From the NCBI GenBank assembly GCA_004293445.1, contig RDYP01000006.1, positions 1-64,000 of the forward strand: a DNA stretch of 64,000 nucleotides, in the 5' to 3' direction. The stretch is from Verrucomicrobiota bacterium. Its GTDB lineage: Bacteria; Verrucomicrobiota; Verrucomicrobiia; Verrucomicrobiales; Akkermansiaceae. The position numbers were made by a program, and so were the translations under genes. Positions 38,601 through 60,036 of this stretch are shown one piece after another. Each line of letters starts with the position of its first letter. The first letter of the stretch is position 1. The notes beneath the pieces are model-generated. The model had not been told where the DNA came from and searched no databases. It was given only the letters and a program-made list of their open reading frames with translations.

Positions 38601-38610
38601 ACGCCCCCTC

Positions 38611-42105: not shown

Positions 42106-42891
42106 TCAACGACTGACAGTCGCTTCTTTCGGCGCACGGGACTTCAGTGCGTTCGCGGATTCGGTGGAAGCCCAGGCGCGGAAAGCCTCGTCCGTGATCA
42201 CTTCCATCTGCCCCACCATGTTCCCGTGGCCCTCGCCGCAGAGCTGGCCGCAGACGACGCTGGTTTCAAGGGTCTTGTTCGGCGTGAACCACATCGGGAA
42301 CTCTTTCCCGGGGATGGCATCCTGTTGGATACGCATCGGAACGATGGCGTAGTTGTGGATCACATCGTTGGCCGTGATGTTGAGGATGGCAGGACGCCCC
42401 TTGGCGACTTTGAGAATGGGCGAAGTGAAGTCGTCCTGGGCGTTGGGATCATTGAAATCAATCGCTGCATCGCTGTTGCTGGTGCGGATCAAAGGTTCAA
42501 TCCGACCGAATTTCCCGTCTTCGCCGGGGTAATGATAGGTCCAGCCAAACTGCCAACCAATCACACGAACGCGAACGGGATCGAGCTTTTGAACCTGCTC
42601 CCAAGTGTCCGTCCGCTCCTTCCACAGGGGGAAGGCAAAGCCGAGGAGCAAAACCGCCTCGATGATCACCACCGCAATTTCCAAGTGGCTGGAAATGTGG
42701 TTGCGAACGCCGTGATAGGACGCCTTCGGGTTCGCCGAGGCACGGAACCGGATCAGGCAATAAATCAGGAAAATAAACCAGCCGATGCCGAGGGCGATCA
42801 TGAACCAGTGGACCACATCGATCAGGTGATCCACGCGGCCGCCGTGGGCGGAGTAGTTTTCGGGGATGCCGAGGAATTTCGAGGGACTCAT
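42106..42891 (-). CDS. coxB: Cytochrome c oxidase subunit II
   Basis: This subunit carries the CuA centre that receives electrons from cytochrome c. The 261-residue protein has two membrane helices (about 27-50 and 70-95), then the cupredoxin domain with VIHNYAIVPM and the CuA motif CGQLCGEGHGNM (Cys, Cys, His, Met). Gln instead of Glu inside the CxxxC loop is also known from ba3-type subunits. No CXXCH domain is fused. It is the last gene of the cluster, away from coxA, which is unusual. Confidence 0.93.
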   Translation of the reverse strand: MSPSKFLGIPENYSAHGGRVDHLIDVVHWFMIALGIGWFIFLIYCLIRFRASANPKASYHGVRNHISSHLEIAVVIIEAVLLLGFAFPLWKERTDTWEQVQKLDPVRVRVIGWQFGWTYHYPGEDGKFGRIEPLIRTSNSDAAIDFNDPNAQDDFTSPILKVAKGRPAILNITANDVIHNYAIVPMRIQQDAIPGKEFPMWFTPNKTLETSVVCGQLCGEGHGNMVGQMEVITDEAFRAWASTESANALKSRAPKEATVSR

Positions 42892-43383: not shown

Positions 43384-43746
43384 CTATTTGGCAGTCTCGC
43401 TGCCCGGCACGCCATCGTTGAAGCCATTGTAGTGGATGGGATCCCACTTCGCCAGGCCGATGAGCACCGCCATGATGACGGCGAACACAAGCGCGCACCC
43501 GAAGACCCAATAGATGAGGCGCTTCTCATGGTTAAGGTGCATGAAGATCGCCGCCACCAGAGTGGCCTTCACCGACGCGATCGCCAGACCGAGAACCATG
43601 TCCCAGACATCGAAACCATGGCCGCCGATATCGAGAAAGGGCTGGGTGGCGACGAGAACGGTGACCACGGTGCCGACGAAAAGGACGGCGCCGATCAGCT
43701 TGTAGAGGCGGAGCGACTTCTGGATTGCTTCGGGAGAATCGGCCAT
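43384..43746 (-). CDS. Cytochrome c oxidase subunit IV-like protein
   Basis: This 120-residue protein has three hydrophobic segments, including VKATLVAAIFMHLNHEKR, the signature of the bacterial subunit IV (CyoD/CtaF type). I start at the ATG at 43746, after the pyrimidine-containing AGTATCCCAAGTC. It lies between coxC and the tiny membrane proteins. Confidence 0.85.
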   Translation of the reverse strand: MADSPEAIQKSLRLYKLIGAVLFVGTVVTVLVATQPFLDIGGHGFDVWDMVLGLAIASVKATLVAAIFMHLNHEKRLIYWVFGCALVFAVIMAVLIGLAKWDPIHYNGFNDGVPGSETAK

Positions 43747-43795
43747 GACTTGGGATACTGAAAACTTGGAATCGGGAAAACTGCGGAGGGCAGCC

Positions 43796-45442
43796 TCACA
43801 TGAGGTAGAGGATCGGGAAAAGGAAGATCCAGACGAGGTCGACGAAGTGCCAGAACAGGCCTCCAACCTCCACCCGATTGGCCAGCCACTCGGGATTGCT
43901 GAGATACATCTTTTTGCCGCAGAAGAGGTAATAAGCCAACACCAGCGCGCCGCCGATCACGTGCAGGCCGTGGAGCCCCGTCATCGTGAAGTAGATCGCA
44001 TAATAGGTATTCCAGGCGGGTGCGAACTTCGATGCGAAGAGGATCTCCTCACGCGGCACCGAAAGATGAGGGAAGGAGTGAGCAGCCTCGCGAACCTTGT
44101 AGTCAGGACCGAAGAACTCCTCCTTCAGGTCCTCCTTGACCTTGGGCATCGCATACTTGCCGGGGGTGATCTTGACCTGATCGATCGGAGTGGTCGCGTA
44201 GTAGGCCATTTCCTGCCAACCGATGCGGTATTTGTCCTTTTCCGTCGGCACACGGCCGTGGCTGGCGAGCTCCTTGGTGAGTTGGGCGAGCGCGACCTGC
44301 TGCTTGTCCCAAATTTTCTTGAGAGAAGGATTCTCCTTCAGCAGCCAGGAATTAGAGATCGCGACCTCGGGCGAGATGTTCTTCTCCTCCGCCTTCATGA
44401 CGAGGTGGCGGAAGTCGATCGCGTCGACGTAGTGGAACACCATCGGACTTTCGAGGAGCTTGCCCTTGAGTGCGGTGCCATCGCGCAGCGCGCCGGAATC
44501 GGGAGCCTCCTGGATATCCCGCGGACGGAAATGGAAGGACGTGGCGGGCTCCACATTGAAGGCGATCGAGGCCTGTTCCGGCATCAAGCGATCCGTGATG
44601 GCCGCTTGATCGACGACCACGTTTTCAGCAAATTCCCAATCGCGCTTGCCCGGATTGGCCTCCTTCGCCTTGGCCCACTGCTCGCGAAGATTCTCAGTGC
44701 GGAGGGCGGCATTGTTGGCACGGGCGGCGAGATGCGCCCGCTTGATGGCATCGAGCAATTCGAGATCGAGCGCCCTACCTGCCGCGAAGACCACTTGCTT
44801 GCCGGGTTCGGACTGGAGTTCGAGCTTGGAAGCCAGAGTGATGGTTGCCTTCTTCTCCGCCGCGCGGGCGATCATCGCCTCGACCCAAGCACGCTCGTAG
44901 CGGACGCTGTTGAAAGTGATCGAAGACGCTTCAAAATTGATGACGTTCTCCTCGATTTTGGAGCCCTTGGCATCGGTCGCGAAATCGCTCTCCGCCGGGT
45001 GATCGCCGTGGCCGACGTGGACACCGTCCTTCACCTTGTAGCCAAGGTGACCTTCCACCACGGCGTAGTCTTTCAGCCGGAGGGCCTGGTGATGGAATTT
45101 CACGTAATACTCGATCCCCTTGAGCCCCATGAAAATCCCGGAGCAGGCAATCGTGATTCCCATGAAAATCTGGAAACGTCCCCACTGCCGCATCTTCAGC
45201 GCGGCCCACGCGAATACGACCGTCACCGAAGAACCGATCAGCACGAATGTATTGATCAGACCCGGTAGCACGGGAAGCGTCCGCTCCGGCCACGGGAAGT
45301 CGGCACCAAGACGGAGGAAGATGTAGGCGGAGAAAAAGCCGCCGAAGAGCATGACTTCCGACGCGAGGAAGAGCCAAATGGCGATCTTCGAATTGAAGAG
45401 GCCCGTGTCCTTGCGCGGGGTGACAATGTAGGGGATTTCCAT
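43796..45442 (-). CDS. coxC: Cytochrome c oxidase subunit III with a large inserted domain
   Basis: The ends of this 548-residue protein are normal subunit III: helices at about 20-45 (IAIWLFLASEVMLFGGFFSAY), 61-85 and 92-115, and near the C-terminus FTMTGLHGLHVIGG and FWHFVDLVWIFLFPILYL. Between helix 3 (KGIEYYVKF, residue 116) and the helix that follows FAPAWNTYYAIYF (residue 473) lies an insertion of about 350 residues where subunit III normally has a short loop. The insertion is soluble, rich in Lys, Glu and Ala, with no CXXCH and no recognised domain. The reading frame is continuous and the gene overlaps nothing. Confidence 0.9.
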   Translation of the reverse strand: MEIPYIVTPRKDTGLFNSKIAIWLFLASEVMLFGGFFSAYIFLRLGADFPWPERTLPVLPGLINTFVLIGSSVTVVFAWAALKMRQWGRFQIFMGITIACSGIFMGLKGIEYYVKFHHQALRLKDYAVVEGHLGYKVKDGVHVGHGDHPAESDFATDAKGSKIEENVINFEASSITFNSVRYERAWVEAMIARAAEKKATITLASKLELQSEPGKQVVFAAGRALDLELLDAIKRAHLAARANNAALRTENLREQWAKAKEANPGKRDWEFAENVVVDQAAITDRLMPEQASIAFNVEPATSFHFRPRDIQEAPDSGALRDGTALKGKLLESPMVFHYVDAIDFRHLVMKAEEKNISPEVAISNSWLLKENPSLKKIWDKQQVALAQLTKELASHGRVPTEKDKYRIGWQEMAYYATTPIDQVKITPGKYAMPKVKEDLKEEFFGPDYKVREAAHSFPHLSVPREEILFASKFAPAWNTYYAIYFTMTGLHGLHVIGGALVLAYYLFCGKKMYLSNPEWLANRVEVGGLFWHFVDLVWIFLFPILYLM

Positions 45443-45481: not shown

Positions 45482-47371
45482 TCAATGGGCGGACGGGGTG
45501 GTCGGTTTTTCGGCGGGCGCACTCGCGTCGCGCTTCGGCTCGATCCACTGCGGGAGGAAATCCTCGTCGCAATCGGGGCGGCTGTATTCGTAGGGACCGC
45601 GATACACGACCGGGTCCGTGACGAAATTTCCGTGGCCGGGAGGCGTCGGGGTCGCCCACTCAAGGGTCGTCGCGTCGTAGGGATTGTCGTTCGCAACCTT
45701 GCGGCCGATCTTCCAAGAGAAGAACAGATTGATCACAAAGGGGATCTGCGCGAGAGCCATCGCCCAAGCCGCCATCGACATGATGATATTGAGGTCGATG
45801 TGCTCGGCGACGGTCTGGCCGAAAACGTTGACGCTGTCCTTGGCCTTGGCGAGATAGGCATCACCACCATTGTACCAACGACGGTGGAAGCCTGCCATCC
45901 CCTGCGTGAGCATCGGGAAGAAGATCAGGTTCATGCACACCAAGCTGGGCCAGAAGTGCAGGTGAGAAAGGAAACCGCTCATGTGGCGACCGGTCACCTT
46001 GGGATACCAATGATACACACCGGCGAAGAGACCGAAGAGAATGCCCGGAGCCACCACGTAGTGGAAGTGTCCGATCACGTAGTAGGTGTCGTGCAAGTGC
46101 AGATCGACCAGGTTGAAGGCGAGCGGCAGGCCGGTCAGACCGCCGATGCCGAACATCGGAAGGAAGGCACAGGCCCACACCATCGCAGGGGTGAAGCGGA
46201 TCGAGCCACCCCAGAGCGAGATGATCATCGAAGTGAGAAGGATCACCGAGGGAATCGAGATCAGCACCGTTGTCGTCTGGAAGAAGGTCGAAACCACTGG
46301 ACCCATGCCGGTGAGATACATGTGGTGGGCCCAGACGATGAAGGACAGGAAGCCGAGGACGAGCACGCCATAAACCATCGACTTGTAGCCCCACAGAGGG
46401 CGGCGGGTATTGACCGGGATGATCTCCGCAACGCAGGCGATCGCGGGCAGGAGCAGCACGTAAACCTCCGGGTGGCCGAGGAACCAGAACAGGTGCTGAT
46501 AGAGCAGCGGGGAACCGCCGCCGGAGAGATCCGCCAAACCTTCCTTCGCGGTGTAAAGACCGGAAGGCAGGAAGAAGGAGGAATGGGAGACGCGATCCAT
46601 CAGCTGCATGATCCCCGCGGCTTCGAGCGGTGGGAAAGCGAGCAAGAGAAGAAAGCCGGTCACCAGCATGGCCCAAACGAAGAAGGGCATGCGCATCCAG
46701 GTCATCCCCCGGGCACGGAGGTTGATGATGGTGGTGATGAAATTGACCGAACCGAGGAGGGACGAAGTGATGAGCAGAACGAGGCCGATCAACCACTGGG
46801 TCTGGCCGGCAAGCCACTGATTGACGATTTGACCGTCAGCAAAACCGGCGAGTGGCGAGTAGTTCGTCCAGCCGGACTTGGCCGCGCCGGACTCCATGAA
46901 GAACGAGGCACACATCACCAAACCACCCACCAGATAGAGCCAGTAGCTCATCATGTTCAGCTTGGGGAAGGCCATGTCGACCGCACCGATCTGGAGCGGT
47001 GTGACGTAGTTGCCGAAGGCACCGAAACCGAGGGGAACGATGCCAAGGAAGACCATGATCGTGCCGTGCATGGCACCGAACATGTTGTAGGTCTCGCCAG
47101 TCACTTTGCCGTCTTGCAGCCAGCGGGCCTTCCAGTTTTCGGAGAAGAGCCAGCTCATCCACTCGGGGAGAGGCTGGTGCGGATAGGCGATGCTCCAACG
47201 CATCACCATCATCAGATAGAAGCCGAAAGCGAGGAAGACCATGGCGGTCAACCCGTACTGGATGCCGATCGTCTTGTGATCGGTGGAAAACAGGTACTTC
47301 CGAAGGAAGCCCGGATCGTGATGGTGATCGTCGTGACCGTGATGGTCGGCGGAGGCGGCGTGTGAGCTCAT
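45482..47371 (-). CDS. coxA: Cytochrome c oxidase subunit I (aa3-type)
   Basis: This catalytic subunit (629 residues) keeps all active-site ligands: HPEVYVLLLP (CuB His and the crosslinked Tyr), the His pair in WAHHMYL, and HDTYYVIGHFHYVVAPG for haems a3 and a. It has a C-terminal extension of about 80 residues with many Pro and Lys, and a His-rich N-terminal tail (SADHHGHDDHHHD). It follows the CcoP-like cytochrome at 24 bases and precedes coxC. This is the true oxidase of the cluster. Confidence 0.96.
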   Translation of the reverse strand: MSSHAASADHHGHDDHHHDPGFLRKYLFSTDHKTIGIQYGLTAMVFLAFGFYLMMVMRWSIAYPHQPLPEWMSWLFSENWKARWLQDGKVTGETYNMFGAMHGTIMVFLGIVPLGFGAFGNYVTPLQIGAVDMAFPKLNMMSYWLYLVGGLVMCASFFMESGAAKSGWTNYSPLAGFADGQIVNQWLAGQTQWLIGLVLLITSSLLGSVNFITTIINLRARGMTWMRMPFFVWAMLVTGFLLLLAFPPLEAAGIMQLMDRVSHSSFFLPSGLYTAKEGLADLSGGGSPLLYQHLFWFLGHPEVYVLLLPAIACVAEIIPVNTRRPLWGYKSMVYGVLVLGFLSFIVWAHHMYLTGMGPVVSTFFQTTTVLISIPSVILLTSMIISLWGGSIRFTPAMVWACAFLPMFGIGGLTGLPLAFNLVDLHLHDTYYVIGHFHYVVAPGILFGLFAGVYHWYPKVTGRHMSGFLSHLHFWPSLVCMNLIFFPMLTQGMAGFHRRWYNGGDAYLAKAKDSVNVFGQTVAEHIDLNIIMSMAAWAMALAQIPFVINLFFSWKIGRKVANDNPYDATTLEWATPTPPGHGNFVTDPVVYRGPYEYSRPDCDEDFLPQWIEPKRDASAPAEKPTTPSAH

Positions 47372-47395: not shown

Positions 47396-48154
47396 TTACT
47401 TGGCTTCCGCCGGTTCGAGGGTGATCGGATCGAGCATCACCTTCGGATCGAGGGAGTCGCCTGCGAGATTCTTCAAGTGATCGGCGTTCAACTCATCCGC
47501 GTTGACCGCTGTGCCGACTTTTGGCCGGGCGTTGGAAATTTCAAGGGCTGCGGCACCCATTTGCTTGGTCACCACATCACCGACCTTGTTGCCGAAAGAA
47601 TTGCGAATGTAGGTCATCAAGGTCGCGAGGTCGTCGCCGCTCATGCCAGCGCCTTGGGCCGGCATCACACCAAACACCTTGCCGGTCGAGGTCGGACCGT
47701 TGAGGCCGTTGAGAATCACCATTGCAAGCCGCTCGGACTCACCGTTGACCCAGGCGGATCCCGCGAGGGAAGGATAAGCATTGCCATCGCCCTTGCCGTC
47801 GGGTCCGTGGCAGCCGATGCACTTGCCGTAGATTTTCTGTCCCTTTGCCATGTAGGCGGCGAGAGCCTCCTTTGGTGGTGGGCCGGCAGCGTCGTCGTCA
47901 GCGGGGATGATACGGACGTAACCGTCCTTCACCGTGTCCTTGTAGGAGAAGAGACGCCCCGCGTTGCCGAGAGCCCAGCCGGCCGCGAGAACCGGGATGG
48001 CGCAAAGGACCAGCACCCAGAGAGAGACGGGCTCGCGGCCGTTCTCCGAGAGCCGGTTTTCGCGGGCCGCCGCGGCGGCTTCGCGCAGGACTCGCTCGTG
48101 GGCTTCGGTGACGTTCACCGACTCCTCGAGATCGGGCTTGGAAGGATCGCTCAT
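47396..48154 (-). CDS. Membrane-anchored mono-haem cytochrome c (CcoP-like position)
   Basis: This 252-residue protein has about 42 cytoplasmic residues, one helix (SLWVLVLCAIPVLAAGWALG) and a cytochrome c domain with CIGCH at residue 112 and axial Met probably in VMPAQGAGM. It has the layout of CcoP but one haem instead of two. With the CcoN- and CcoO-like genes upstream it completes a cbb3-like trio. It could carry electrons to the aa3 oxidase. Confidence 0.85.
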   Translation of the reverse strand: MSDPSKPDLEESVNVTEAHERVLREAAAAARENRLSENGREPVSLWVLVLCAIPVLAAGWALGNAGRLFSYKDTVKDGYVRIIPADDDAAGPPPKEALAAYMAKGQKIYGKCIGCHGPDGKGDGNAYPSLAGSAWVNGESERLAMVILNGLNGPTSTGKVFGVMPAQGAGMSGDDLATLMTYIRNSFGNKVGDVVTKQMGAAALEISNARPKVGTAVNADELNADHLKNLAGDSLDPKVMLDPITLEPAEAK

Positions 48155-48173: not shown

Positions 48174-48905
48174 TCAGCCTTGAGGTGCTGCAGCTTTGGG
48201 CGCGGTGGCCTTGACCGGGGCTGGGTTCATCGAAGCCGGAACCGTGTCGTCGCGCTTCAAGGAAAGCAGATAGTCCACCAAGGACTCGGCTTCGGGAGTG
48301 GCCACCATGACCGATCCGGCGCTCGCGGGGATCGGCAAAGGATCGGAAGGAGCCTGTCCGAGAATCGCCCGCTCCTTGAAGAGGAAGCGATGAGAAGGGC
48401 ACTTCGAAGTCGGACGCTTCGGATCGAGACGAGGATCGTAGAGATGGGTGAGCAGCCAAGTGCGAGGCGATACCGCCGCCTCCTTCGCATAAATCGCTTC
48501 GACCCGGCGACCGAGATTCGAAAGATCCGGGCCAAGACGGTTGACGCCGATTTGAGCGAACTTCTCGCCATGATAATCGAAAACATTCGATTCACGACGA
48601 GTATCGCCCCGCGCTTCATCGGCCTTCAATCCCGCCCAGTCCGCGCGTCCGAGATCGTTCCCGGCATAGGTCGGGCGGATCAGCTGGCTGTGACAGAGAT
48701 AGCATCCATTGGCAGCGTAAACCTGGGCACCATTCGCCACGCGGCCGGTCCGCTTGGGATGATAGATGCCCTCCTTACCGTCGGCGATTTCGTCGAAGGC
48801 AACCGGCTGAACCGAGCGCATCTGAAAGAAGGGCACGATCACCACAGCTACCCAAGCGAGGCCGAAGGAAGCGGTGAGACCGGAAGCGAATTGGCGGAAG
48901 GTCAT
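48174..48905 (-). CDS. CcoO-like membrane-anchored mono-haem cytochrome
   Basis: This 243-residue protein resembles CcoO: an N-terminal membrane anchor (LTASFGLAWVAVVIVPFFQM), the phrase YAANGCYLCHSQLIRPTYAG with haem motif CYLCH at residue 68, then GVNRLGPDLSNLGRR and TWLLTHLYDPR in the order known for cbb3 subunit II. The haem-binding motif is intact. Together with the next gene upstream (CcoN-like), it forms a cbb3-like pair. The C-terminus is Ala/Pro/Lys-rich. Confidence 0.87.
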   Translation of the reverse strand: MTFRQFASGLTASFGLAWVAVVIVPFFQMRSVQPVAFDEIADGKEGIYHPKRTGRVANGAQVYAANGCYLCHSQLIRPTYAGNDLGRADWAGLKADEARGDTRRESNVFDYHGEKFAQIGVNRLGPDLSNLGRRVEAIYAKEAAVSPRTWLLTHLYDPRLDPKRPTSKCPSHRFLFKERAILGQAPSDPLPIPASAGSVMVATPEAESLVDYLLSLKRDDTVPASMNPAPVKATAPKAAAPQG

Positions 48906-48939: not shown

Positions 48940-50448
48940 TCAGTGGGCGTGGGCGGAACCCGGGCCGGCGTTGTCGATGTCCCCCTCGGGTCCGTGGGTG
49001 CCGTCGTGCAAGTCGCCGTGATGTCCGTCGCCGAGAAGGGTCGGATGCGAGCTGCGGCGGCCGAGGCGAAGCCACATCAGGCCGAGGTGGAGGAAGAAGA
49101 AAAGATTGGAGACCAGCAGGAAGCACCAGGCGATGGTGGCTGCGACTGCATAGGGATAAGCGTAGGTCATCGCATTTTCCCAAGGCTGCTTGTAGTCCTC
49201 CTGAGCCCCACCCTGCATGAGACCGCCGAAGAGGGCGACCAATGCGACGGTGACGACCCCGTAGATCGAGAGGAAGAAGTGGAGCTTGATGAGTCCGCCG
49301 AAGAGCCACTCGCGACGGGTCAGGCGCGGCACCACGAAGTAGATCATCCCGAAGGCGACAAAACTGAAGAATCCGTAGAGCGCCAAGATGTCGAAACCGT
49401 ATCCGGAGAGACTGAATTGGCTGAGAGGCAGGAAACTAGGAACATTCAGCAAGGTACAGGCAAGGCCGAGAACCAGCAGACCCACCACGCCGGCCACGGT
49501 GAAGCGAAGCGAGGGACTGTTGACCACGGTTTCCCAAGCGCCGGCGGCGGTCTTCAGCAGGTTCACACTGGCAGCGATCGCCGGCACCGCGATGAAGATG
49601 GTGGCGGCAGCACCCAGATAGGGCAGGAAAGCGGGAATCGGAGCACCAGCCAACTTCTGCATGCCTGCCCACGGCGCGACCACCGCAAGCGACCAAAACC
49701 CGAGCAAGGAGAGGGTGTAGCTGTAAACCGGGCGACCGGTGATCTTCGGCACCAAGTAATAGGCAGCGGCAATCGCGGCGGGAGTGAAGAACAAGAAGAG
49801 CAGGCCGGAGCGGAACCAAGCATTGATCGCATTTGCCATCAGCGGGCTGCCCGAGAAGCCGTGGATCAGGAGATGAGCCGTGGCGAAAACCCATGGGAAC
49901 CAGATCAGGGCACCGAGCACATACCACTGCGAAACGAACACGTGACCGGCAGGGCGCACCTTGAACTGAACCATCGACCAGACCGCAATCGCGGCATAGG
50001 CCAGGAGCATCGGCACCCAGGCGAAGACCGGGAATTCCATCCATGGCACTCCGGTTCCCTTGCCCGCAAGAATTCCAATGGTCCCGAGTCCGATCGCGAG
50101 GTTCCAGACGTGGCCGGCGGTGAGAATGATTCCGGCGGCGCGGCACTCCTGGCGCGAGAGGCGGGCCATGAGCCAAATCAACATCCCGAAGGCGGCTTGG
50201 CAGCCCCATCCGTAAATGAGGGCGTTCATGTGGGCGGGTTGCACCCGTCCGTAAGTCAGCCACGAGCAACCGTCGAGGAAGCCCGGACTGTGAACTTTCG
50301 CAGACGAAACAATGCCGAGCAAGATGGCGACAGCCAGCCAGGCGGCACCACTGGTGAAGAAGAACATCACCGGATGGCGCAGGGAGCGGTCGATTTCCGC
50401 GCGGCGGGCCGCGTCGATCGCCGGATTCTGGGAAGAAGCTTGGGACAT
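48940..50448 (-). CDS. CcoN-like protein lacking the catalytic metal and haem ligands
   Basis: This 502-residue polytopic protein clearly belongs to the cbb3 subunit I family: TYGRVQPAHMNALIYGW (His73, the low-spin haem position), RPVYSYTLSLLGFW, WAGMQKLAG and FGMIYFVVPRLTRREW line up with CcoN. By my hand alignment the CuB histidine of GHNAVGFFLT is Ser214 (FRSGLLFLFFT), the CuB pair in WAGPHH is Gln264-Lys265, and the haem histidines in GHVHSG are Phe352 and Ile354. Only His73 of the active-site histidines remains. The protein cannot be a working oxygen reductase as such. It sits between a CcoO-like cytochrome and a mono-haem cytochrome. The C-terminal tail is His-rich (HHGDLHDGTHG). Confidence 0.85.
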   Translation of the reverse strand: MSQASSQNPAIDAARRAEIDRSLRHPVMFFFTSGAAWLAVAILLGIVSSAKVHSPGFLDGCSWLTYGRVQPAHMNALIYGWGCQAAFGMLIWLMARLSRQECRAAGIILTAGHVWNLAIGLGTIGILAGKGTGVPWMEFPVFAWVPMLLAYAAIAVWSMVQFKVRPAGHVFVSQWYVLGALIWFPWVFATAHLLIHGFSGSPLMANAINAWFRSGLLFLFFTPAAIAAAYYLVPKITGRPVYSYTLSLLGFWSLAVVAPWAGMQKLAGAPIPAFLPYLGAAATIFIAVPAIAASVNLLKTAAGAWETVVNSPSLRFTVAGVVGLLVLGLACTLLNVPSFLPLSQFSLSGYGFDILALYGFFSFVAFGMIYFVVPRLTRREWLFGGLIKLHFFLSIYGVVTVALVALFGGLMQGGAQEDYKQPWENAMTYAYPYAVAATIAWCFLLVSNLFFFLHLGLMWLRLGRRSSHPTLLGDGHHGDLHDGTHGPEGDIDNAGPGSAHAH

Positions 50449-50478: not shown

Positions 50479-51279
50479 TCAGGGCTTGATCATATCAGCT
50501 TCGGTGAGCATCGGCTTGCCGACCTCGGAGCGGAGCATTTTGACCTGCTCGGGCAGCACGGCGGATGCCTTGTTGCCGAAGCTGTTTCGAACGTAAGTGA
50601 GCACGGCGGCGATCTGCTCGTCGCTCTGCTGGGCCAGCGGGGACATGGGGGCGGGCAGGTTGTATTGCTTGCCGCTCACGGTGATCGGGCCCGTTAGGCC
50701 GCGAAGTTGGATGCGAATCAGATTGGAAACCGGACCCGTCACCCAATCCGATGCAGCCAAGGGTGGAGCAATCGGGCCGCCTTCGCCATTCATGCCATGA
50801 CAAACGAAACAGGTCCCGGCGGTGTACTGAGCCTTGCCGGCTTCCAGCAGCGCGGGATCGATCGCAGCATCAGCCGCAGGGGTCAGCGCATCGACAGCTC
50901 CGAAGTCGGACGAGGGAGCGGCAGCTGCGGCGAGTTGACGGTCGGAGCCCGGAACGATTTGCTCCGGCTGGGCGACGGCGACGGGTTGCTCGGCGACGAG
51001 CGACTTGCCAAGGTGCGCGAAGACATCGTGCGGGGGAACTTGGACCGTTTTGCCGGCCTCCACTTCCTTGTATGCAAAAGCGGACTTTTGCGCAGCCGCC
51101 ACCGTCTCGCGGATCTCGTAGCGCTTGGCCGCAGCTGCTTCTTCGAGGGGATCCGGACGATCCGAGCCGCCGGTGAAGACCCGGATGACCAGCAAGGTCA
51201 AACCGAAGGCCGCGAAGACGCCGATCGCCCACCAGAAGGCGGCGAAACGGACCAGGGGATTGTCGCTGGGTGAGGACAT
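50479..51279 (-). CDS. Membrane-anchored mono-haem cytochrome c
   Basis: This 266-residue protein has one N-terminal helix (FAAFWWAIGVFAAFGLTLLVIRVF), a long charged linker of about 110 residues and a C-terminal cytochrome domain with CFVCH at residue 157 and candidate axial Met in PAPMSPL. The domain resembles the one in the CcoP-like gene at 47396: LTYVRNSFGNK occurs here and a near-copy there, so they are probably duplicates. It lies directly downstream of actF and could accept electrons from ACIII. Confidence 0.85.
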   Translation of the reverse strand: MSSPSDNPLVRFAAFWWAIGVFAAFGLTLLVIRVFTGGSDRPDPLEEAAAAKRYEIRETVAAAQKSAFAYKEVEAGKTVQVPPHDVFAHLGKSLVAEQPVAVAQPEQIVPGSDRQLAAAAAPSSDFGAVDALTPAADAAIDPALLEAGKAQYTAGTCFVCHGMNGEGGPIAPPLAASDWVTGPVSNLIRIQLRGLTGPITVSGKQYNLPAPMSPLAQQSDEQIAAVLTYVRNSFGNKASAVLPEQVKMLRSEVGKPMLTEADMIKP

Positions 51280-51380: not shown

Positions 51381-52763
51381 TCAGTTCGAGACGTTGGCGG
51401 ATTCGAGGATGCGAGGGTCGCGATGAGGATAGACGGCAGTCTGGGTCAGGGCGCGAAGGTAGAAGAAAAGGAAACCCGAACCAATGGCGGCGAAGGCGAG
51501 GATGTCGCCCCAGAATGCGCCGGGGACGGCGGTGGTCACACCCGCGAAGGACTCGGCACCCGGCACCTTGGACATCGCCATGGCGTAGAGCGAAACCGAG
51601 CGCTCGGGAATGACGATGATGTAGTGATCGAGAACGTGCATCACCAGCGTGTAACCAGCCATGACGCTGAGCAATTTCGGATTTTTCTTCAGCCAAGCCT
51701 GGAGCAGGATCACGAAGGGAATGGCGAAGTGACCAATGACGAGCGCGATGCTGGCGATATTCCATCCGCCGGTGTTACGGATGAGATACCATGAGGTCTC
51801 TTCGGCCACGTTGGCATACCAGATCAGGAAAAACTGCGAGAAGGTGATGTAGCCCCAGAACACGGTGAAGGCGAAGAGCAGCTTGCCCATGATGTGGAAG
51901 TGCTCCGGTCCGACAACCTTCTTCATGTAACCGCCATGGATGAGCAAGGTGCAGGTGATGATGATCACCGCCATCGAGTTCAGGGCGGAGCCGGCGAAGA
52001 GATAAACGCCCCACATCGTGGAGAACCAATCGAACTTCATGCCTTGCAGGAGATCGATGCCTGCGAAGGTGATGGTGATCGCGAAAATGACCAGAGTGTA
52101 GGTCGAGTGGAAGCGGGCCTTGAAAAGATTCTTCGTGCTCGGGTTCGGATCGCTGTCCTGGGCCACGGAAAACTTGCGAAGGGCACGAATCACGAGGCCG
52201 AGGCCGATGAAATAGAAGGCGAAGCGAGCATACCAAGCGACCTGGTTCATGTACCACTGCTTGTTCACCAGCAGGGCCTGATGATCGGCCTCGAGGGCCT
52301 TCTTCATCGATTCGGTGCCGTAGAAACCAGCGAGGAAACCATCGAAGATGTCGCCACCGTTCTTCATGGCCTCGCGATGGACGTTCATCCACTCGTAGAG
52401 CCACTGCTGCACGTTCGGGCAGGCAAGCGGTAGGGCGAAAAGGGTCATCCAAGGGAAAACGGAACCGAGGTTCTCCATCACGCGACGGACGGAAGTCCCC
52501 CACCCCGAATTGGAGACGTTGTGGAGGAGTGTCCAGAAGCAGCCGCCGACCGCGAGGGTGAAGAAGAAGAAGAAGGCGAAGAGCCAGGAGTAGGCGAAGG
52601 GCGCCGAGATCTTGGCCGGAGCCATGAACAGAAGGTAGAAGCTGAGCAGCCCGAGCAGGACTGCTAGGCCGCCGGCGGCGCGCTTGGCGGTCTCGACCTT
52701 GGAATTGACGAGACGCTCGCCGTCGGCCGGGATGTCAGCGGAAGTGACGAAGTGGTGTGCCAT
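51381..52763 (-). CDS. actF: ACIII subunit ActF, membrane protein
   Basis: This 460-residue polytopic protein follows actE and has the ActF layout of about ten helices (LAVLLGLLSFYLLFMAP, FAFFFFFTLAVGGCFW, FGYITFSQFFLIWYAN-like segment, IASIALVIGHFAIPFVILL). It is the second NrfD-like membrane scaffold of ACIII. The ATG is preceded by CTTTCCCCACCGAA rather than a purine-rich site. Confidence 0.9.
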   Translation of the reverse strand: MAHHFVTSADIPADGERLVNSKVETAKRAAGGLAVLLGLLSFYLLFMAPAKISAPFAYSWLFAFFFFFTLAVGGCFWTLLHNVSNSGWGTSVRRVMENLGSVFPWMTLFALPLACPNVQQWLYEWMNVHREAMKNGGDIFDGFLAGFYGTESMKKALEADHQALLVNKQWYMNQVAWYARFAFYFIGLGLVIRALRKFSVAQDSDPNPSTKNLFKARFHSTYTLVIFAITITFAGIDLLQGMKFDWFSTMWGVYLFAGSALNSMAVIIITCTLLIHGGYMKKVVGPEHFHIMGKLLFAFTVFWGYITFSQFFLIWYANVAEETSWYLIRNTGGWNIASIALVIGHFAIPFVILLQAWLKKNPKLLSVMAGYTLVMHVLDHYIIVIPERSVSLYAMAMSKVPGAESFAGVTTAVPGAFWGDILAFAAIGSGFLFFYLRALTQTAVYPHRDPRILESANVSN

Positions 52764-52784: not shown

Positions 52785-53474
52785 TTACTGGGCCTGGGCG
52801 GCGATGCCCTTGTCGAAGGCTTCCTTGACGGCGTCGTAAGGAGCCTTTCGGGCGGTTTGAAGGGCGCGGACGTAGGCGACGACGGCCCATCGATCGCGCA
52901 GGACGATGTTGTGCTTGTAGCCGCCCATGTTGCCCTTGCCGTTGGAGATCGTCGCGAAGAGTCGACCGTCGGGATAGACGGCGGGCAGCCAGCTGTCCTG
53001 GGTGAGATTGGCGATGCCGGGAACGCCATAGTTGCTGGTGATGCCGAGTCCGTCGCCGGATTGCCCGTGGCAGATCGCGCAGTTCACGTTGTAAACTTCT
53101 TCACCGCGCTTGAGGAAGGCACCGACGTTTTCCGCGGTGAGCTTGAGTTCGGCAGGCATGCCATTCGCGTAGTATCCGTCGAGACCGCCGGTGGCGTAGT
53201 AGCCACTGCCGCCACCGAATTCGAGCTCATGCACGCCACCGATCTCCTTGGCTCCTTCGGGATTGAAGCCCAAGGGCTGGGTGCCAGCGACCGGGAGGCG
53301 GGCGCCTTGGCCATCGGAGAAAAAGGTGTCGGGCTGCTGGGCCTTGAGCTTGTCCTGCTCATCCATGTCCGGGAACAAGCGGATGGGAGTGTTCGGGGAC
53401 TTCGCGCCACGCATCGGCATGAGGCCGATGAAGAGGGCGGCGATGATCGCGTAGGCGAGGAAGAAGTATTTCAC
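52785..53474 (-). CDS. actE: ACIII subunit ActE, mono-haem cytochrome c
   Basis: This 229-residue cytochrome begins with a hydrophobic anchor (KYFFLAYAIIAALFIGLMP) and has the haem motif CAICH at residue 132, followed by GQSGDGLGITSNYGVPG. The start is a GTG at 53474. No lipobox is present, unlike many ActE proteins, so the N-terminal helix probably serves as anchor. It would receive electrons from ActA and pass them on to the downstream cytochromes. Confidence 0.9.
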   Translation of the reverse strand: MKYFFLAYAIIAALFIGLMPMRGAKSPNTPIRLFPDMDEQDKLKAQQPDTFFSDGQGARLPVAGTQPLGFNPEGAKEIGGVHELEFGGGSGYYATGGLDGYYANGMPAELKLTAENVGAFLKRGEEVYNVNCAICHGQSGDGLGITSNYGVPGIANLTQDSWLPAVYPDGRLFATISNGKGNMGGYKHNIVLRDRWAVVAYVRALQTARKAPYDAVKEAFDKGIAAQAQ

Positions 53475-53526: not shown

Positions 53527-54081
53527 TCAGTCCTCCTCTTCGACGAGTTCGATGCTCTTGCCGCCGATATCCTCAAGGAGGCGGCGGGTTCCTTCGGGAC
53601 TGAATTTCGGGTCGCGGGCTTCGATCGCGATGAAGAAGGCGTCGTCGGTCGCGCGGTGGAACTGGCGGCTGGCGAAGAGCGGGTGATTCAAGCGCGGGAG
53701 CTTCATCAAGCCGAGGAGGCCGAACAGCGTGGTGAAGCCCGAGAAGAGAATGGTCAGCTCGAACATGATCGGGAAGAAGGCCGGAATGGTGAAAAAGTTC
53801 GCGGGCTTCGACTGGACGACGGTTGGATAGATTTCGACCTGGGTGAAGTAGGCCAGGCTGAATCCAGTGATCAGGCCCAAGGTGCCGCCACAGAACACGA
53901 ACCATGGGAGGATCGAGCGCTTCATCCCCATCGCCCCATCGAGGCCGTGGACCGGATAAGGGCTGTGGCAGTCCCACTTGCTAAAGCCGGCATCGCGCAC
54001 TTTTTCGGCCGCCTTGAAAAGAGCGGAAGCGCTGGAAAACTCGGCGAGGTAGCCGTAAACGCGTTTGCGGGTGGTACTCAC
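53527..54081 (-). CDS. actD: ACIII subunit ActD (DUF3341)
   Basis: This 184-residue protein has two helices (LPWFVFCGGTLGLITGFSLAYFTQ and FPIMFELTILFSGFTTLFGLLGLM) joined by the conserved YPTVVQSKPANFFTIPAFFPIMFE region of DUF3341, and an N-terminal globular part with YGYLAEFSSASAL. The start is a GTG at 54081; the frame upstream of it is not plausible coding. ActD is a structural membrane subunit of ACIII. Confidence 0.92.
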   Translation of the reverse strand: MSTTRKRVYGYLAEFSSASALFKAAEKVRDAGFSKWDCHSPYPVHGLDGAMGMKRSILPWFVFCGGTLGLITGFSLAYFTQVEIYPTVVQSKPANFFTIPAFFPIMFELTILFSGFTTLFGLLGLMKLPRLNHPLFASRQFHRATDDAFFIAIEARDPKFSPEGTRRLLEDIGGKSIELVEEED

Positions 54082-54127
54082 GGTATGAAGTTCCAAGTGA
54101 AAGGTTCCAATTGCCAGAGGGTGGAGG

Positions 54128-55627
54128 TCAGGCCTTGGCGTCGGCGGAGCCCTCGGCATGGAGCTCGTGCTGATAGGCGGCGACGACCTCGGTGCCGTGG
54201 TCCGGGTGGTCGTGGTGATCGTCGTGGTGCGGATCGGACTCTTTCAGCGTCCATTTCACCTCGGCGATGTTGATGCAGGGAAGGAAGCGGAGGAAGAGAA
54301 GGAAGAGAGCGAGGAACATCCCGATCGTGCCGACAAAGAGCATGATCTCCACCCAGCTCGGGCTGTAAGTCTTCCAGTCGCCGGGAAGGAACATGCGGGC
54401 GAGAGTGCCGACGATGATGACGAAGCGCTCGAACCACATGCCAACGTTCACGCACATCGCGACGGCCAGCACGACCCAGAGATTCTCGCGACAGGCCTTG
54501 AACCAGAAAAATTGTGGGGAAAGGACGTTGCAGGACATCATCGCCACGTAGGCCCACCAGTAGGGACCGGTAATGCGGAACTTGAAGGCATCCATCTCAT
54601 ACTTCGCACCCGAGTAATAGGCGACGAAGAGCTCCATCAAGTAGGCGTAGCCGACGATGGTGCCGGTGAGCAGGATGATCTTCGCCATGTTGTCGATGTG
54701 CTTCATCGTGATCAGATCCTGCAAGCCGTAGAGCGCCCGGGCGGGGATCATGATGGTGAGCACCATCGCAAAGCCACCGAAGATGGCACCTGCGACGAAG
54801 TAGGGTGGGAAGATCGTGGTGTGCCAACCCGGGACGACCGAGGTGGCGAAGTCGAAGGACACGATCGAGTGGACCGAAAGCACCAGCGGGGTGGAAAGGG
54901 CGGCGAGGAGGAGGTAAGCCATCTCGTAGTGGCTCCACTGGCGGTTGCCGCCGCGCCAGCCGAGGGCAAAGATTCCGTAGAGCGCCTTGCGCAGGCCGGG
55001 CTTGCAGCGGTCGCGGATGGTGGCGAGGTCGGGAACCATGCCGAGATACCAGAAGATCAGCGAAATGGTGAAGTAGGTCGAAACGGCGAACACGTCCCAG
55101 AGAAGTGGCGACTTGAAGTTCTGCCAGATCGCGTTCGAGTTCGGGATCGGAGCAAGGAACCAGGCCATCCAGACGCGGCCAACGTGGAAGGCCGGGAAAA
55201 TGCCGGCGCACATCACCGCGAAAATGGTCATTGCCTCCGCGGCACGGTTGATCGAGGTCCGCCAGTTCTGCCGAGTCAGGAAAAGCACGGCGGAAATCAG
55301 GGTGCCGGCGTGGCCGATACCGATCCAGAACACGAAGTTGGTGATGTCCCAACCCCAGAAAACGCGGTTCGACATGCCCCAAACACCAACACCGGTGGAG
55401 ACCAAGTAGGTCAGGCCAAGGCCGACACCGATCATCGCGATCAGCGCGCAGGGAATGAAGAGGATCCACCAGAGGAGGGGCTGGCGGTTCTCAAGCACCC
55501 CGCAGATGCGCTCGGTGATCCAGTGATAGGAACGGCCGTTGAGGATGAGCTTCTCGCGCTCGAGGACCGGAAGTTTCGGTCCTTGGCGGGTCTGGCTCGG
55601 GGAATGGTCGTTGGCGGTGGATGCCAT
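54128..55627 (-). CDS. actC: ACIII subunit ActC, NrfD-family quinol-site membrane protein
   Basis: This 499-residue protein has about ten helices in the NrfD/PsrC pattern. [24 protein letters not shown] and [15 protein letters not shown] carry residues that line the quinol pocket in ACIII structures. A His/Asp-rich C-terminal tail ([12 protein letters not shown]) is unusual and may bind metal. It lies between actB and actD. Confidence 0.94.
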
Positions 55628-55756: not shown

Positions 55757-58700
55757 TCAATGCATGTGAATCGTGGCTTTGCCGACCCACTTGGCGTCGG
55801 GCATCTTGTCGTTCGGATTCTTGACCCGGGCGAGGTAGCTGGTGCGGGGCTTGGTGCCGATGTAGTGCAGCAGGTCGTAGGATCGATCCGAACCCTTGGC
55901 GCGAACCATCGTCGACTTGTCACCATCGAGCAGATTGCCGAAAGTGATGGCATCGGCCGGGCAGGCTTCCTGACAGGCGACCTTCACCGAATCGACCGCG
56001 ATGCGGAGGGTGGCGGTGGTCACTTCGGAATCCGGTGAGGCCTTGCCGGCGAGCAGGGCCTCCTGCTTCTGGCCGCGCTTCTGGCGGATCTTGGCGTCTT
56101 TGAGACGCTGCACGCAGTAAGTGCACTTCTCCATCACGCCGCGCATGCGGACCGAAACGTTCGGATTGCGCTGGAGATGAGGCGCGGTGCCGACCTGCTT
56201 TTCGCCGAAGGGACCCTTGTAAAGGTTGTGGGCGACCAGCGGGTTGCGCTTGTTGTAATCGAAGAAATTGAATCGGCGGGTCTTGTAAGGGCAGTTGTTC
56301 GCGCAGTAGCGCGTGCCGATGCAGCGATTGTAAGCCATCGCATTGAGGCCGTCCTCGGTGTGGACCGTGGCATTGACCGGGCAGACGGTTTCACAGGGCG
56401 CACTTTCGCACTGGACGCAGGCGACCGGCTGGGGAACCAGGGCGGGATTGCCGGGGTCGAAGTCGTTGCCGCTTTCCACCGCGTAGTAGCGGTCCATGCG
56501 GATCCAGTGCATCTCGCGGCCCTTGGCGAGCTGCTCCTTGCCGACGATTGGGATGTTGTTTTCCGCTTGGCAGGCGACAAGGCAAGCGTTGCAACCCATG
56601 CACGAAGAGAGATCAATGGTCATCGCCCACTGGTGCAGCGGGTCGCTGAGGTGGGGCTTGCCGTCCTTGCCTTCGGGCTTGTAGAGCGAAATGTTCGGCG
56701 GCGCGTGGCCGTCATTGCCCTGGAGCTTCACATTGTGGAGCTGCTCCTCGAAGCCGCCCTTGTGATCACCGGAGTCAATGGTCGAAATTTCGCGGGCGAG
56801 CGCGCGGCCATACATCGCATGGTGCTCCTGAACAACGGCCATCGGGTAGCGGCGGCCGGTCTTTTTGACGCTCGCACCGGTCGCGAAATAAGCGGTCGTG
56901 CTGCTGCGCAGCGGATAAGCGTTGAAACCCGAGTTCACGCCGACCTGGCCGACGTGGGAAGCGGGAGCCTTGCCCTGCGCGTTGCGGCCGAACTTGTCCT
57001 CGGCATCGAAACCCTGCCCGTAACCAAGCGGGATGACGACGGTATTCTCGGCTTGGCCGAAAGAGATCATCGCAGGGAACTCGAGTTCGACGCCATTGAC
57101 GGCGACGGTGATGAGCGGGGCGCTGCGATGTTCGCCTTCGCCGTCTGGACCGGTCGCGCCGTTCCAGGTTTCGAGGGCCACGATCTCGTCGTAAATTCCG
57201 AGGTTCTTGGCGGTTTCCGGAGCGATCAATGCGGCATTGTCCCAGGACTGCTTGGTGACCGGATCGGGAGCTTCTTGCAGCCAGCCATTGTCGATCCAGC
57301 GGCCGTCGTAAACCGAGGCATCGGTGGCGAACACCACTTCCACTCCCTGAGCGGCCGGAGCAGCGGCGATCGGAGCGTTGGGAATCGCAACCTCAACGGT
57401 CTCGAACGATGTTCCCGCTTGGAAACCGTCGCGTAGCAGTTTGCTCCAAGCGTCACTGCCCTTGGCTGCGATCCCTTCAAAGGTCTTGCGGACCGCATCG
57501 TGGGCAGGCGAGGGCTTGCCTTCGGCTCCTTCACCCGTGACCAGCTTGCCATCATCGGACAAAAGAGCGGAAAGGATTTCCAACTCGCTGGCGCAATCGG
57601 CGTAGAGCGGCAGGATCATCGGCTGCACCACAGTGTAAACGCCACTCTCGCTGCGGGCGTCGGACCAGCTTTCGAGATAATGACTTACGGGCACGTGCCA
57701 CGTCGCCGCGTGAGCGGTGGCGTCGGTGCGGGAACCGAGGTGGATCACCGTCTTCGCCTTGGACAAGGCTGCCGGGAAAGCGAGGTCTGCCGGGGCGTCG
57801 TAGACCGGATTGGCAGGGGTCAACAAGAAAAGGGTATCCACCGCACCAGCTTCGAGGTCCGCCTTCAGCGCGGCGATGTCGCCGAGGCCTTGGGCTTCAC
57901 TGCGAACGTGGCGCAAAGGCTTGTCATCACCGATGTTGCCGAGCTTGGCATTGATCGCAAGAACGAGCGAATGAACGGATTCCGGCAAGCGGGATCCAGC
58001 GAGGACCATCGATTTGCCCGCGGACTGCAAAAGGTCATCCGCCATCACATTCACCCACTCGAGATGCTTCGCGTCGGCAAGCGGAGCGATCTGAGCAACC
58101 AAACCTTCGAGACCGATGCGGCGAGCGATCTGTGCCGCGATCACGAGCAACTGGCTTGGGGCGACGCGCAGACGATGATCGGCCATCCCGCCTGTCATCG
58201 AGAAAGCACTCTCGACCGCGTAGAGACGGTTCATGGCCTGGGGCTGGGCTTTTCCGGCGTAGGTCTTGCCCTCGGGCTTACGGCGATCGAAGAAAGGCGT
58301 CACTGGGCCCTGCGGATCCAACGATGCGAAATCGCAGTCGAGGGAGAGGATGCGGTCCGCCTTCGAAAAATCCGCGAGCTGGCGAACACCATCACCCAGC
58401 ACCTTGGCAGCACTGCTTTCGAGCGCCTCGTAGGCGTAGAACTTGGCGGAACCGAACTTGGCGGCGAGCTCCTTCGCGAGGCGCGTGCGGGTCGGCGAGA
58501 CGTCGCGACCAAAGACAAATCCCAGTTTGGCGGCCTTGTCCCCGGCAACGGCGGCAAGCACGGCCTCAAAATCGCCACGCTTCGCGGCCTGCCCCTGACG
58601 GAGCAGGGTCTTCGAGCGCGAGGGCGAGTAAAGATCGAGCACGGAGGCCTGCGCGAAGGCATCGGTGCCGGCGGCATCCGGGTGAAGCGTATTGGCAGCG

Positions 58701-59083
58701 AGCTTGGTCGGGCGGCCTTCGAAGGTCGTGACCACCAGCGGCGTCGCGCCGGTGGCGCGGGGCATGGTGGAGGCGTAGTAGGTGGCCTTGCCGGGAATCA
58801 CCCACTCGGGCGCTTTGTTGTAGGGAACGATCTTCGTCTCCGGGCGACGGCAGGCCGCCATGCCGAAACCGGCGAGAGCGGTCGACGCCCCCATCAGCTT
58901 CATGAACGAGCGCCGGGAAGTCTCCGCGTCCGCCTCGTCGGCCATTTCGGCCACGCCTTGCGGGAATTCGCGATCAAGCCAGCTGCGGAAAGCGGGGCTG
59001 TCCTCGAGTTGGCCGACGCCACGCCAAGAGACCGTAGTCTCGCCGGCGGGAACCTCGGGATGATGCCAGATGCGTTTGCTCAT
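55757..59083 (-). CDS. actB: ACIII subunit ActB, molybdopterin-like plus four-cluster Fe-S protein
   Basis: This 1,108-residue protein has a twin-arginine-like signal inside its N-terminal part (SRRSFMKLMG at residues 56-65). Residues about 90-780 resemble the molybdopterin oxidoreductase fold but in ACIII bind no cofactor. The last 280 residues form a ferredoxin-like Fe-S domain: CMGCNACLVAC near 828, CVQCESAPCETVC near 890, CIGTRYCANNCPYK near 920, and CTYCVQRLKD near 986 with CQEACPADAITF near 1036. The Fe-S clusters would take electrons from the quinol site in ActC to ActA. Confidence 0.95.
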   Translation of the reverse strand: MSKRIWHHPEVPAGETTVSWRGVGQLEDSPAFRSWLDREFPQGVAEMADEADAETSRRSFMKLMGASTALAGFGMAACRRPETKIVPYNKAPEWVIPGKATYYASTMPRATGATPLVVTTFEGRPTKLAANTLHPDAAGTDAFAQASVLDLYSPSRSKTLLRQGQAAKRGDFEAVLAAVAGDKAAKLGFVFGRDVSPTRTRLAKELAAKFGSAKFYAYEALESSAAKVLGDGVRQLADFSKADRILSLDCDFASLDPQGPVTPFFDRRKPEGKTYAGKAQPQAMNRLYAVESAFSMTGGMADHRLRVAPSQLLVIAAQIARRIGLEGLVAQIAPLADAKHLEWVNVMADDLLQSAGKSMVLAGSRLPESVHSLVLAINAKLGNIGDDKPLRHVRSEAQGLGDIAALKADLEAGAVDTLFLLTPANPVYDAPADLAFPAALSKAKTVIHLGSRTDATAHAATWHVPVSHYLESWSDARSESGVYTVVQPMILPLYADCASELEILSALLSDDGKLVTGEGAEGKPSPAHDAVRKTFEGIAAKGSDAWSKLLRDGFQAGTSFETVEVAIPNAPIAAAPAAQGVEVVFATDASVYDGRWIDNGWLQEAPDPVTKQSWDNAALIAPETAKNLGIYDEIVALETWNGATGPDGEGEHRSAPLITVAVNGVELEFPAMISFGQAENTVVIPLGYGQGFDAEDKFGRNAQGKAPASHVGQVGVNSGFNAYPLRSSTTAYFATGASVKKTGRRYPMAVVQEHHAMYGRALAREISTIDSGDHKGGFEEQLHNVKLQGNDGHAPPNISLYKPEGKDGKPHLSDPLHQWAMTIDLSSCMGCNACLVACQAENNIPIVGKEQLAKGREMHWIRMDRYYAVESGNDFDPGNPALVPQPVACVQCESAPCETVCPVNATVHTEDGLNAMAYNRCIGTRYCANNCPYKTRRFNFFDYNKRNPLVAHNLYKGPFGEKQVGTAPHLQRNPNVSVRMRGVMEKCTYCVQRLKDAKIRQKRGQKQEALLAGKASPDSEVTTATLRIAVDSVKVACQEACPADAITFGNLLDGDKSTMVRAKGSDRSYDLLHYIGTKPRTSYLARVKNPNDKMPDAKWVGKATIHMH

Positions 59084-59824: not shown

Positions 59825-59865
59825 GACGGTGATGCGTCGGGATGCTCGGCGGAGAGAGAATTGGC

Positions 59866-59887
59866 GCTTGTGAAATTTTTCACAAGC
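59866..59887. promoter_or_regulatory. Perfect CRP/FNR-type palindrome upstream of actA
   Basis: The sequence is a perfect 10-base inverted repeat with a two-base centre (GCTTGTGAAA-TT-TTTCACAAGC). It contains TGTGA-N6-TCACA (59869-59884), the consensus of CRP-type regulators. It ends 42 bases before the actA ATG, so it could serve as an activator or repressor site for the whole ACIII-oxidase cluster. No good -10 element could be found next to it, and the regulator is not in this window. Confidence 0.6.
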
Positions 59888-60036
59888 TCTTTCGGATGGC
59901 CGTGGATGCTTCCCCCGGCGCGGACCGGGAGTTTGCAAACCGCCCTCGGACTGGCAACCGGAAAAACCACCGGAATCTCAAAAAATAACAATCCTCTCTT
60001 GCGTCGGCGAATTTTCGGGGGGGGGTGGACGACCAT

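Follow-up and report, generated by a model that had tools for sequence, protein, structure and literature searches.

A CcoN-like protein encoded beside alternative complex III in Verrucomicrobiota lacks the oxidase active site and is probably a structural and wiring subunit

The gene described here is a ccoN-like gene of a Verrucomicrobiota bacterium (class Verrucomicrobiia, order Verrucomicrobiales, family Akkermansiaceae). It lies at positions 48,940 to 50,448 of a 64,000-nucleotide stretch of contig RDYP01000006.1 (NCBI GenBank assembly GCA_004293445.1, positions 1 to 64,000), referred to below as the window, within a cluster for alternative complex III (ACIII) and an aa3-type cytochrome c oxidase. 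The product is considered, with moderate probability, to be an oxygen-inactive relative of CcoN that is now a fixed membrane subunit of an ACIII supercomplex, where it would hold cytochromes c for electron transfer to another oxidase (aa3 in this case); its role in the respiratory chain is probably that of structure and wiring. For the class as a whole it is judged likely that ACIII permanently absorbed an oxidase module, and that the catalytic subunit of this module repeatedly became a dead, haem-poor structural or wiring subunit, the loss of O2 chemistry recurring while the complex kept working. On the same proposal the ‘cbb3’ of the methanotrophs in this class would be such a subunit, and their O2 affinity would come from aa3/ba3. 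The support counted consists of the fold, the lost ligands, gene order, selection, the kept haem-c motifs, a shared clade, and repeated loss where another haem-copper protein exists.

The open reading frame (ORF) has 502 codons on the minus strand, with an ATG start and a normal stop, and is separated by 30 nt from the upstream cytochrome c gene and by 34 nt from the following ccoO-like gene. The translated protein was matched by the Pfam family PF00115 (COX1) at 139.2 bits and by the NCBIfam ccoN equivalog TIGR00780 at 121.7 bits, which does not reach the cut-off of 583. Solved relatives identified by sequence were cbb3 subunits I (5 distinct sequences; phmmer against Pseudomonas stutzeri CcoN, 3mk7, E 9.1e-27). 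The AlphaFold2 model (predicted local distance difference test score, pLDDT, 84; predicted template modelling score, pTM, 0.87) was searched with Foldseek, and cbb3 chains ranked first. Superposition on 3mk7_G by VIA-align gave Z 45.1 and a root-mean-square deviation of 2.2 Å over 442 residues at 22% identity, indicating the CcoN fold of 12 transmembrane helices (TM). The match to the nitric oxide reductase (NOR) fold was weaker (4xyd_A, Z 40.6).

Ligand positions were assigned by phmmer alignment to 3mk7 and by MAFFT. His73, equivalent to H60 of P. stutzeri CcoN, is the sole histidine kept of six. The CuB positions H207, H257 and H258 are Ser214, Gln264 and Lys265, and the haem positions H345 and H347 are Phe352 (in place of the haem b3 ligand) and Ile354 (in place of the second low-spin partner). 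Tyr251 of P. stutzeri, which we take to be the active-site tyrosine of CcoN on TM7, corresponds to Ala258. The E323 position is also Ala in the aligned stretch; this active-site glutamate is termed mandatory for cbb3 in the portion of the source available (PMC5492636). The histidines of the window protein are residues 25, 53, 73, 113, 169, 192, 196, 390 and 454, plus those of a tail from 468, and TM6, TM7 and TM10 have none. Because these three helices hold no histidine, the site cannot be recovered by any change of register, and an alternative alignment register was ruled out. A NorB-type nitric oxide reductase was rejected on the same ground: the fold is alike, but the haem b3 and FeB histidines are absent. 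The ligand loss is real and, given the 115 sequences of the order and the low dN/dS described below, neither chance nor an assembly error.

To follow conservation, 57 genomes were searched, the window's own included. The gene was present in 53, with the copy in G020 lying in two pieces; G001 and G038 gave canonical-type matches only, and G018 and G019 no match. Distinct sequences of the order (115, the window's included; L130 is a half-length fragment) were aligned with MAFFT, and the full six-histidine set was found in none of them. One of the six histidines is kept in 92 sequences, two in 15, none in 7 and three in 1. Among individual residues, His73 is kept in 108 of the 115, Gln264 in 101, Lys265 in 85, Gly268 in 114, His113 in 105, His390 in 113 and His454 in 104; conservation at the Phe352 and Ile354 haem positions is average or lower. 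Nei-Gojobori ratios of nonsynonymous to synonymous substitution (dN/dS), were computed by our own script for 152 pairs with dS between 0.1 and 2, which are not independent; the median was 0.091 and the highest value 0.22. By this measure the gene is under purifying selection and is not decaying. A relic gene on its way out would account for the faster change that follows site loss (described below), but this is contradicted by the selection data (omega about 0.09), the intact frames and the presence of the gene in 53/57 genomes, and is very improbable. The first-pass annotation, prepared from the letters of the window, had placed an intact, in-frame, neatly spaced and apparently selected gene with a CcoN fold inside an ACIII-aa3 cluster and had aligned the six ligand positions by hand. 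Model superposition, the phmmer and MAFFT alignments, the genome counts and dN/dS, and gene order with Pfam matches each agreed with it, and profile alignment located no histidines elsewhere that could serve at the CuB or b3 positions.

The survey was then widened to the phylum: a profile search covered 383 genomes, and related proteins, canonical CcoN included, were found in 146. Loci were aligned for 106 cases: 25 from the window's order and 81 from outside it, the latter representing every genome of the class that lies outside the order and gave a strong match (L130, half a gene, was left out). Ligands are complete, with six histidines and Tyr251, at 31/106 loci, all outside the order. They are lost at 75/106 (25 in the order, 50 outside), where Tyr251 occurs in 0/75 and the histidines kept number one in 38 proteins, none in 26, two in 10 and three in 1. 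Pooled with the 115 sequences of the order, this gives 196 proteins, 31 intact and 165 lost. Replacement strings differ among lost lineages (SESHFV, QQRHQQ, AAVNQQ, HSQKFI). Continued reduction of O2 or NO through another ligand set could be read from the conservation of Gln264, Lys265 and Gly268 in the order, but the replacements elsewhere are unrelated, and the window protein has neither Tyr251 nor a histidine in TM6, TM7 or TM10; such activity is scarcely to be expected. The E323 glutamate is missing in 31/31 ligand-complete relatives as well, and for this reason, judged by sequence, the intact ACIII-linked forms also differ from textbook cbb3.

Intact and lost forms group together in a clade of 55 rows (support 100/100) that excludes canonical CcoN and other C-type relatives, and they occupy the same place in the operon. 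ActF is encoded upstream at 74/75 lost and 30/31 intact loci, both misses falling at contig ends. A CcoO-like protein with a CXXCH motif is encoded at 75/75 and 31/31 loci, and the next cytochrome c with CXXCH at 75/75 lost and 29/31 intact loci, the other two not being found in the stretch. The window shows a variant of this arrangement, an extra cytochrome c gene intervening after actF; a cytochrome c upstream of the ccoN-like gene was seen at 13/75 ligand-lost loci (L125 of these without CXXCH) and at 0/31 intact loci. An assembly or regulatory factor, which would hold haem, copper or CcoO/CcoP during maturation without being a permanent subunit, would fit the retention of the gene in the operon by several site-lost lineages. 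The fixed place between actF and the cytochromes c, and the clade shared with a ligand-complete oxidase subunit, point instead to a stoichiometric subunit, and a factor of this kind is unlikely. The haem-poor 12-TM fold might alternatively serve as a channel for ions or protons, tying their flow to the turnover of ACIII. Transmembrane residues conserved in both lost and intact forms (for example Y223, P227, K228, Y363 and H384, Pseudomonas numbering) would suit such a channel, but E122, S240 and Y251, which are presumably proton-path residues and are conserved in intact forms, are often changed; this option is quite improbable.

ACIII and the CcoN-like protein were also compared by occurrence. 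ActC matches at E <= 1e-50 were obtained in 151/383 genomes of the phylum; within the class, both proteins occur in 107 genomes, ActC alone in 2 and the CcoN-like protein alone in 2, a count that leaves out genus g3 and the weak match of G132. Genus g3 (14 genomes, perhaps Akkermansia) lacks a strong CcoN-like match and has a divergent ActC, 47-49% identical in the rows shown; ActC without a strong CcoN-like match was also recorded in G063 (methanotroph family) and G375. These genomes may show ACIII working without a CcoN module. Outside the class, one locus (L191, G361) has a ligand-complete CcoN inside an ACIII gene group, and the pairing may predate the class.

A further possibility is a one-haem b-type cytochrome, in which His73 would be joined by a new ligand (His113, His390 or His454 in Verrucomicrobiales) and which would carry electrons or dock quinone. 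The conservation of these four histidines in the order agrees with it, and three of the 75 ligand-lost proteins (L161, L162, L129) keep both classical low-spin histidines while the CuB and b3 ligands are gone; these are possible one-haem intermediates, as far as sequence can tell. Predicted topology, however, would place His73 on the outer face and His113, His390 and His454 on the inner, and H384 of P. stutzeri (equivalent to His390) is conserved in 31/31 intact CcoNs too, so that its role is probably structural. Many lost relatives with the operon in place have A, Q or F where His73 would be. A haem b on His73 is thus possible in the window's order and would not be the general role, since the histidine is kept in only 22/75 ligand-lost proteins; as an account of the protein the one-haem cytochrome is rather unlikely. 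Of the ideas put forward in the first-pass annotation, a single-haem protein is accordingly weakened as a general role and keeps some ground in its own order, and a scaffold or bridge gives the best fit to the comparative data, short of proof. The same annotation had named ligand-complete homologues in related genomes as grounds against its reading and had pointed to ACIII clusters of other Verrucomicrobia. Such homologues exist outside the order (31/106 loci) and not within it, but they are relatives in which the site is retained; replacements vary by lineage, and the loss in the window stands.

The history of the loss was examined on trees of ActB-F and of CcoN. The ActB-F tree covered 92/106 loci (14 left out, including the window's short locus L001). 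Lost and intact branches alternate on it, with at least 8 changes, or 12 separate losses if no regain is allowed (12 lost-only clades). A constraint placing the 28 lost rows of a 49-row ActB-F subset in one clade was rejected (log-likelihood difference 3249; approximately unbiased test, p-AU, 1.4e-97). A single loss was also rejected on a later CcoN set of 39 rows (13 lost, with L213 and more intact relatives; p-AU 1e-7). Since lost rows sit in three separate places on this tree, the lower bound is 3 losses. On the combined trees the active site is lost several times, at least 3 and nominally 12, and a single ancient loss was rejected by the later, author-chosen sets, though not by the first CcoN tree (given below). 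The clearest case is L213, which shares 60% identity with the intact proteins of its family and has all seven active-site residues gone (AAVNQQ plus Gly). Transfer of ccoN alone between operons might also interleave lost and intact rows. It may account for some cases, but for L213, L173, L172 and L161 the nearest row is an intact CcoN (for L161 after its sister L162), and L213 and L180 group with their own family on both ActB-F and CcoN trees.

Oxidases were counted in 79 of 80 assignable genomes (G009 left out). PF00115 matches number at least two in 51/51 genomes with a lost CcoN, and the 16 genomes with exactly two each have one above 400 bits. An intact CcoN stands alone in 2/28 intact genomes (G057, G199), with no cytochrome bd detected in either. 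As these two genomes have no other haem-copper protein and no detectable bd, the intact ACIII-linked CcoN would seem to be a working oxidase. In the window genome (97% complete), PF00115 gave two matches; the other subunit I is the CoxA of the cluster, in which ligand motifs are present. No cytochrome bd was found in that genome. A second, true CcoN elsewhere in it was considered and dismissed, there being no TIGR00780 match above the cut-off and only the two PF00115 matches. With aa3 as the sole haem-copper oxidase detected there that bears ligands, and with cytochrome bd undetected, electrons that leave ACIII for O2 should reach it through aa3 in this organism.

Several observations weigh against the proposed bridge and its recurrent origin. 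The difference between 0/51 and 2/28 is small, the genomes are not independent, and G057 and G199 belong to one genus. PF00115 includes NOR-type proteins, and for genomes with at least three matches ‘another oxidase’ is assigned by family only. CoxA lies within the fetched stretch at 28/75 lost loci (a floor, since seven lost loci, including that of the window, are short) and at 1/31 intact loci; hand-over to a co-encoded aa3 is hardly general. The first CcoN tree, made before L213 and further loci were added, had 68 rows, 46 lost and 9 intact ones of them in the clade, and was compatible with a single loss (p-AU 0.375). The 49- and 39-row subsets were picked by the authors after the trees had been seen, and the 39 omit many fast lost rows. 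CcoN also evolves faster after site loss, which partly fits relaxed constraint: L213 and L166 are 60% identical in CcoN and 83% in ActB-F, whereas intact pairs of the family are near level (e.g., 77% and 76%).

With these points taken into account, the bridge remains the preferred interpretation and may be laid out as follows. Early in the class, actA-F would have shared an operon with a C-type oxidase (ccoN, ccoO and a cytochrome c), and this module would have stayed after its own chemistry became dispensable. The dead CcoN may have been kept as the anchor of CcoO-like and CcoP-like monohaem cytochromes c beside ACIII. Electrons would run from menaquinol through ACIII to these haems c and on to CuA of the aa3 oxidase whose genes lie just downstream, and the bridge would have ceased to terminate in a haem-copper site of its own. 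In other members of the class an unlinked oxidase could take the place of this aa3.

The genes of the cluster are all on the minus strand, in the order actA, actB, actC, actD, actE, actF, monohaem cytochrome c, ccoN-like, ccoO-like, monohaem cytochrome c, coxA, coxC, COX4-type, coxB. Names actA to actF were assigned by gene order and, like the role given for ActC and the type given for ActB, are to be taken as presumed. The features are as follows.

59123..59938, minus strand: ActA, pentahaem (5 CXXCH), from the CXXCH count
55757..59083, minus strand: ActB, presumed molybdopterin-like/FeS subunit, 1108 amino acids, from operon position
54128..55627, minus strand: ActC, presumed NrfD-like quinol-site subunit, from operon position
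53527..54159, minus strand: ActD, from operon position
52785..53474, minus strand: ActE, monohaem (CAICH), from operon position and CXXCH
51381..52763, minus strand: ActF, ACIII membrane subunit, 460 amino acids, from position in the act operon
50479..51279, minus strand: extra monohaem cytochrome c (CFVCH), 266 amino acids, between actF and the ccoN-like gene; PF00034, one CXXCH
48940..50448, minus strand: CcoN-like pseudo-oxidase subunit, 502 amino acids, without CuB or high-spin haem ligands, His73 only
48174..48905, minus strand: CcoO-like monohaem cytochrome c (CYLCH), 243 amino acids; PF02433 (FixO) 38.1 bits, one CXXCH
47396..48154, minus strand: monohaem cytochrome c in the CcoP position (CIGCH), 252 amino acids; PF00034/PF13442, one CXXCH
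45482..47371, minus strand: CoxA, aa3-type oxidase subunit I; PF00115 426.8 bits, with HPEVY, AHHMY and GHFHY in the translation
43796..45442, minus strand: CoxC, 548 amino acids, with a long insertion; PF00510 in two stretches
43384..43866, minus strand: COX4-like subunit IV; PF03626 39.3 bits, start unsure, overlapping coxC
42106..42891, minus strand: CoxB, CuA subunit without a fused cytochrome c; PF00116, no CXXCH

The window's ActF had no Pfam or NCBIfam match. We take the three CoxA motifs to be those of the haem-copper ligands. In cbb3 oxidases the partner subunits are a monohaem CcoO and a dihaem CcoP; here the protein in the CcoP position has a single CXXCH (TIGR00782 33.8 bits, cut-off 180), and the pair is therefore not of that composition. 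The CoxC insertion, between the two COX3 stretches, is estimated at about 350 amino acids. CoxC frames are 455-568 amino acids long in those relatives of the order that have aa3 in the locus, and 225-295 in the methanotroph loci, L163, L164 and L183. The insertion may be a docking element, by analogy with Flavobacterium johnsoniae, where subunit III makes the contact with ACIII according to the part of the report available (PMC8361435). Beyond the cluster, a 668-amino-acid protein with several CXXCH haem-c motifs is encoded at 38563-40569 on the plus strand, upstream of an array of a 14-bp unit (CCCCGACAACACAT; 40783-41036, 18.1 copies, 97% matches), which occupies the interval from this multihaem ORF to the gene that follows.

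The same kind of protein was found in methanotrophs. Genomes of family f8 that carry the gene encode a PmoB-type protein in 7/7 cases and were classed as methanotrophs on this basis (G063, of the same family and without a CcoN-like match, stands outside the seven tested for PmoB). The methanol dehydrogenase of G097 is identical over 531 residues to PDB 4mae, which is presumably that of M. fumariolicum SolV. All seven genomes have a ligand-less CcoN beside ACIII (SESHFV or ADAHQT), and canonical CcoN was found in none of them (best TIGR00780 match 33.7 bits, cut-off 583). As aligned, the ACIII-linked protein of these methanotrophs cannot form a haem-copper centre. In the published text available, the Methylacidiphilum locus next to ACIII is called a cbb3-type terminal oxidase, and is tied to high O2 affinity or counted among three oxidase types (PMC6688271, PMC8498564, PMC10205796). 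Since the published locus is said to adjoin ACIII and no other CcoN is present, we infer that it is the ACIII-linked gene described here. For another member of the phylum, the available portion of the report lists the three genes right after actABCDEF as a caa3 oxidase, with cbb3 elsewhere (PMC13274419). The ‘unknown group’ of COX1 proteins of Muntyan, seen through a figure legend in PMC5492636, may include these proteins. In the accessible literature on ligand-less CcoN and on ACIII with cbb3, the protein is called cbb3 and no mention of ligand loss was found; the subscription papers (Refojo 2010/2013, Muntyan 2015) fall outside that coverage, and an earlier remark in them is possible.

Subunit I of haem-copper oxidases serves as a diagnostic marker of aerobic respiration. 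The proteins described here match COX1 and ccoN models and have been printed as cbb3. Active-site ligands are nevertheless absent from 165/196 of the ACIII-linked CcoN-like proteins examined, 115 of the 165 being from the window's order. This changes the reading of the genomes of methanotrophs and other Verrucomicrobia, both in the number of terminal oxidases and in claims of high O2 affinity. The group also offers a natural experiment on non-catalytic roles of a respiratory catalytic subunit, with several independent births of a pseudoenzyme in one conserved operon, some of them with close living relatives in which the active site is retained. The clade and operon place shared with ligand-complete CcoNs, the recurrence of the loss and the apparent identity in kind with the methanotroph ‘cbb3’ go beyond the first-pass annotation.

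Compared with P. stutzeri CcoN (3mk7), the window protein has the same 12-TM fold, one low-spin haem histidine and a CcoO-type partner gene, but has lost the ligands of CuB and b3, the second low-spin histidine and Tyr251, and its partner in the CcoP position has one CXXCH. It shares clade, place after actF and partner genes with the 31 ligand-complete ACIII-linked relatives of other orders of the class, and differs from them in that they keep six histidines and Tyr251. To our knowledge, the ACIII-aa3 supercomplex of F. johnsoniae contains no CcoN-derived subunit. In that system ACIII is bound to a cytochrome c oxidase (Sun et al. 2018, as described in PMC8361435); the window would resemble it in such a pairing, to which gene order and co-occurrence point here. 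With the ‘cbb3’ of Methylacidiphilum the window protein would share both gene and operon place, judging from the adjacency to ACIII given in the available text; that protein is printed as a terminal oxidase, yet its ligands are gone in 7/7 PmoB-bearing genomes.

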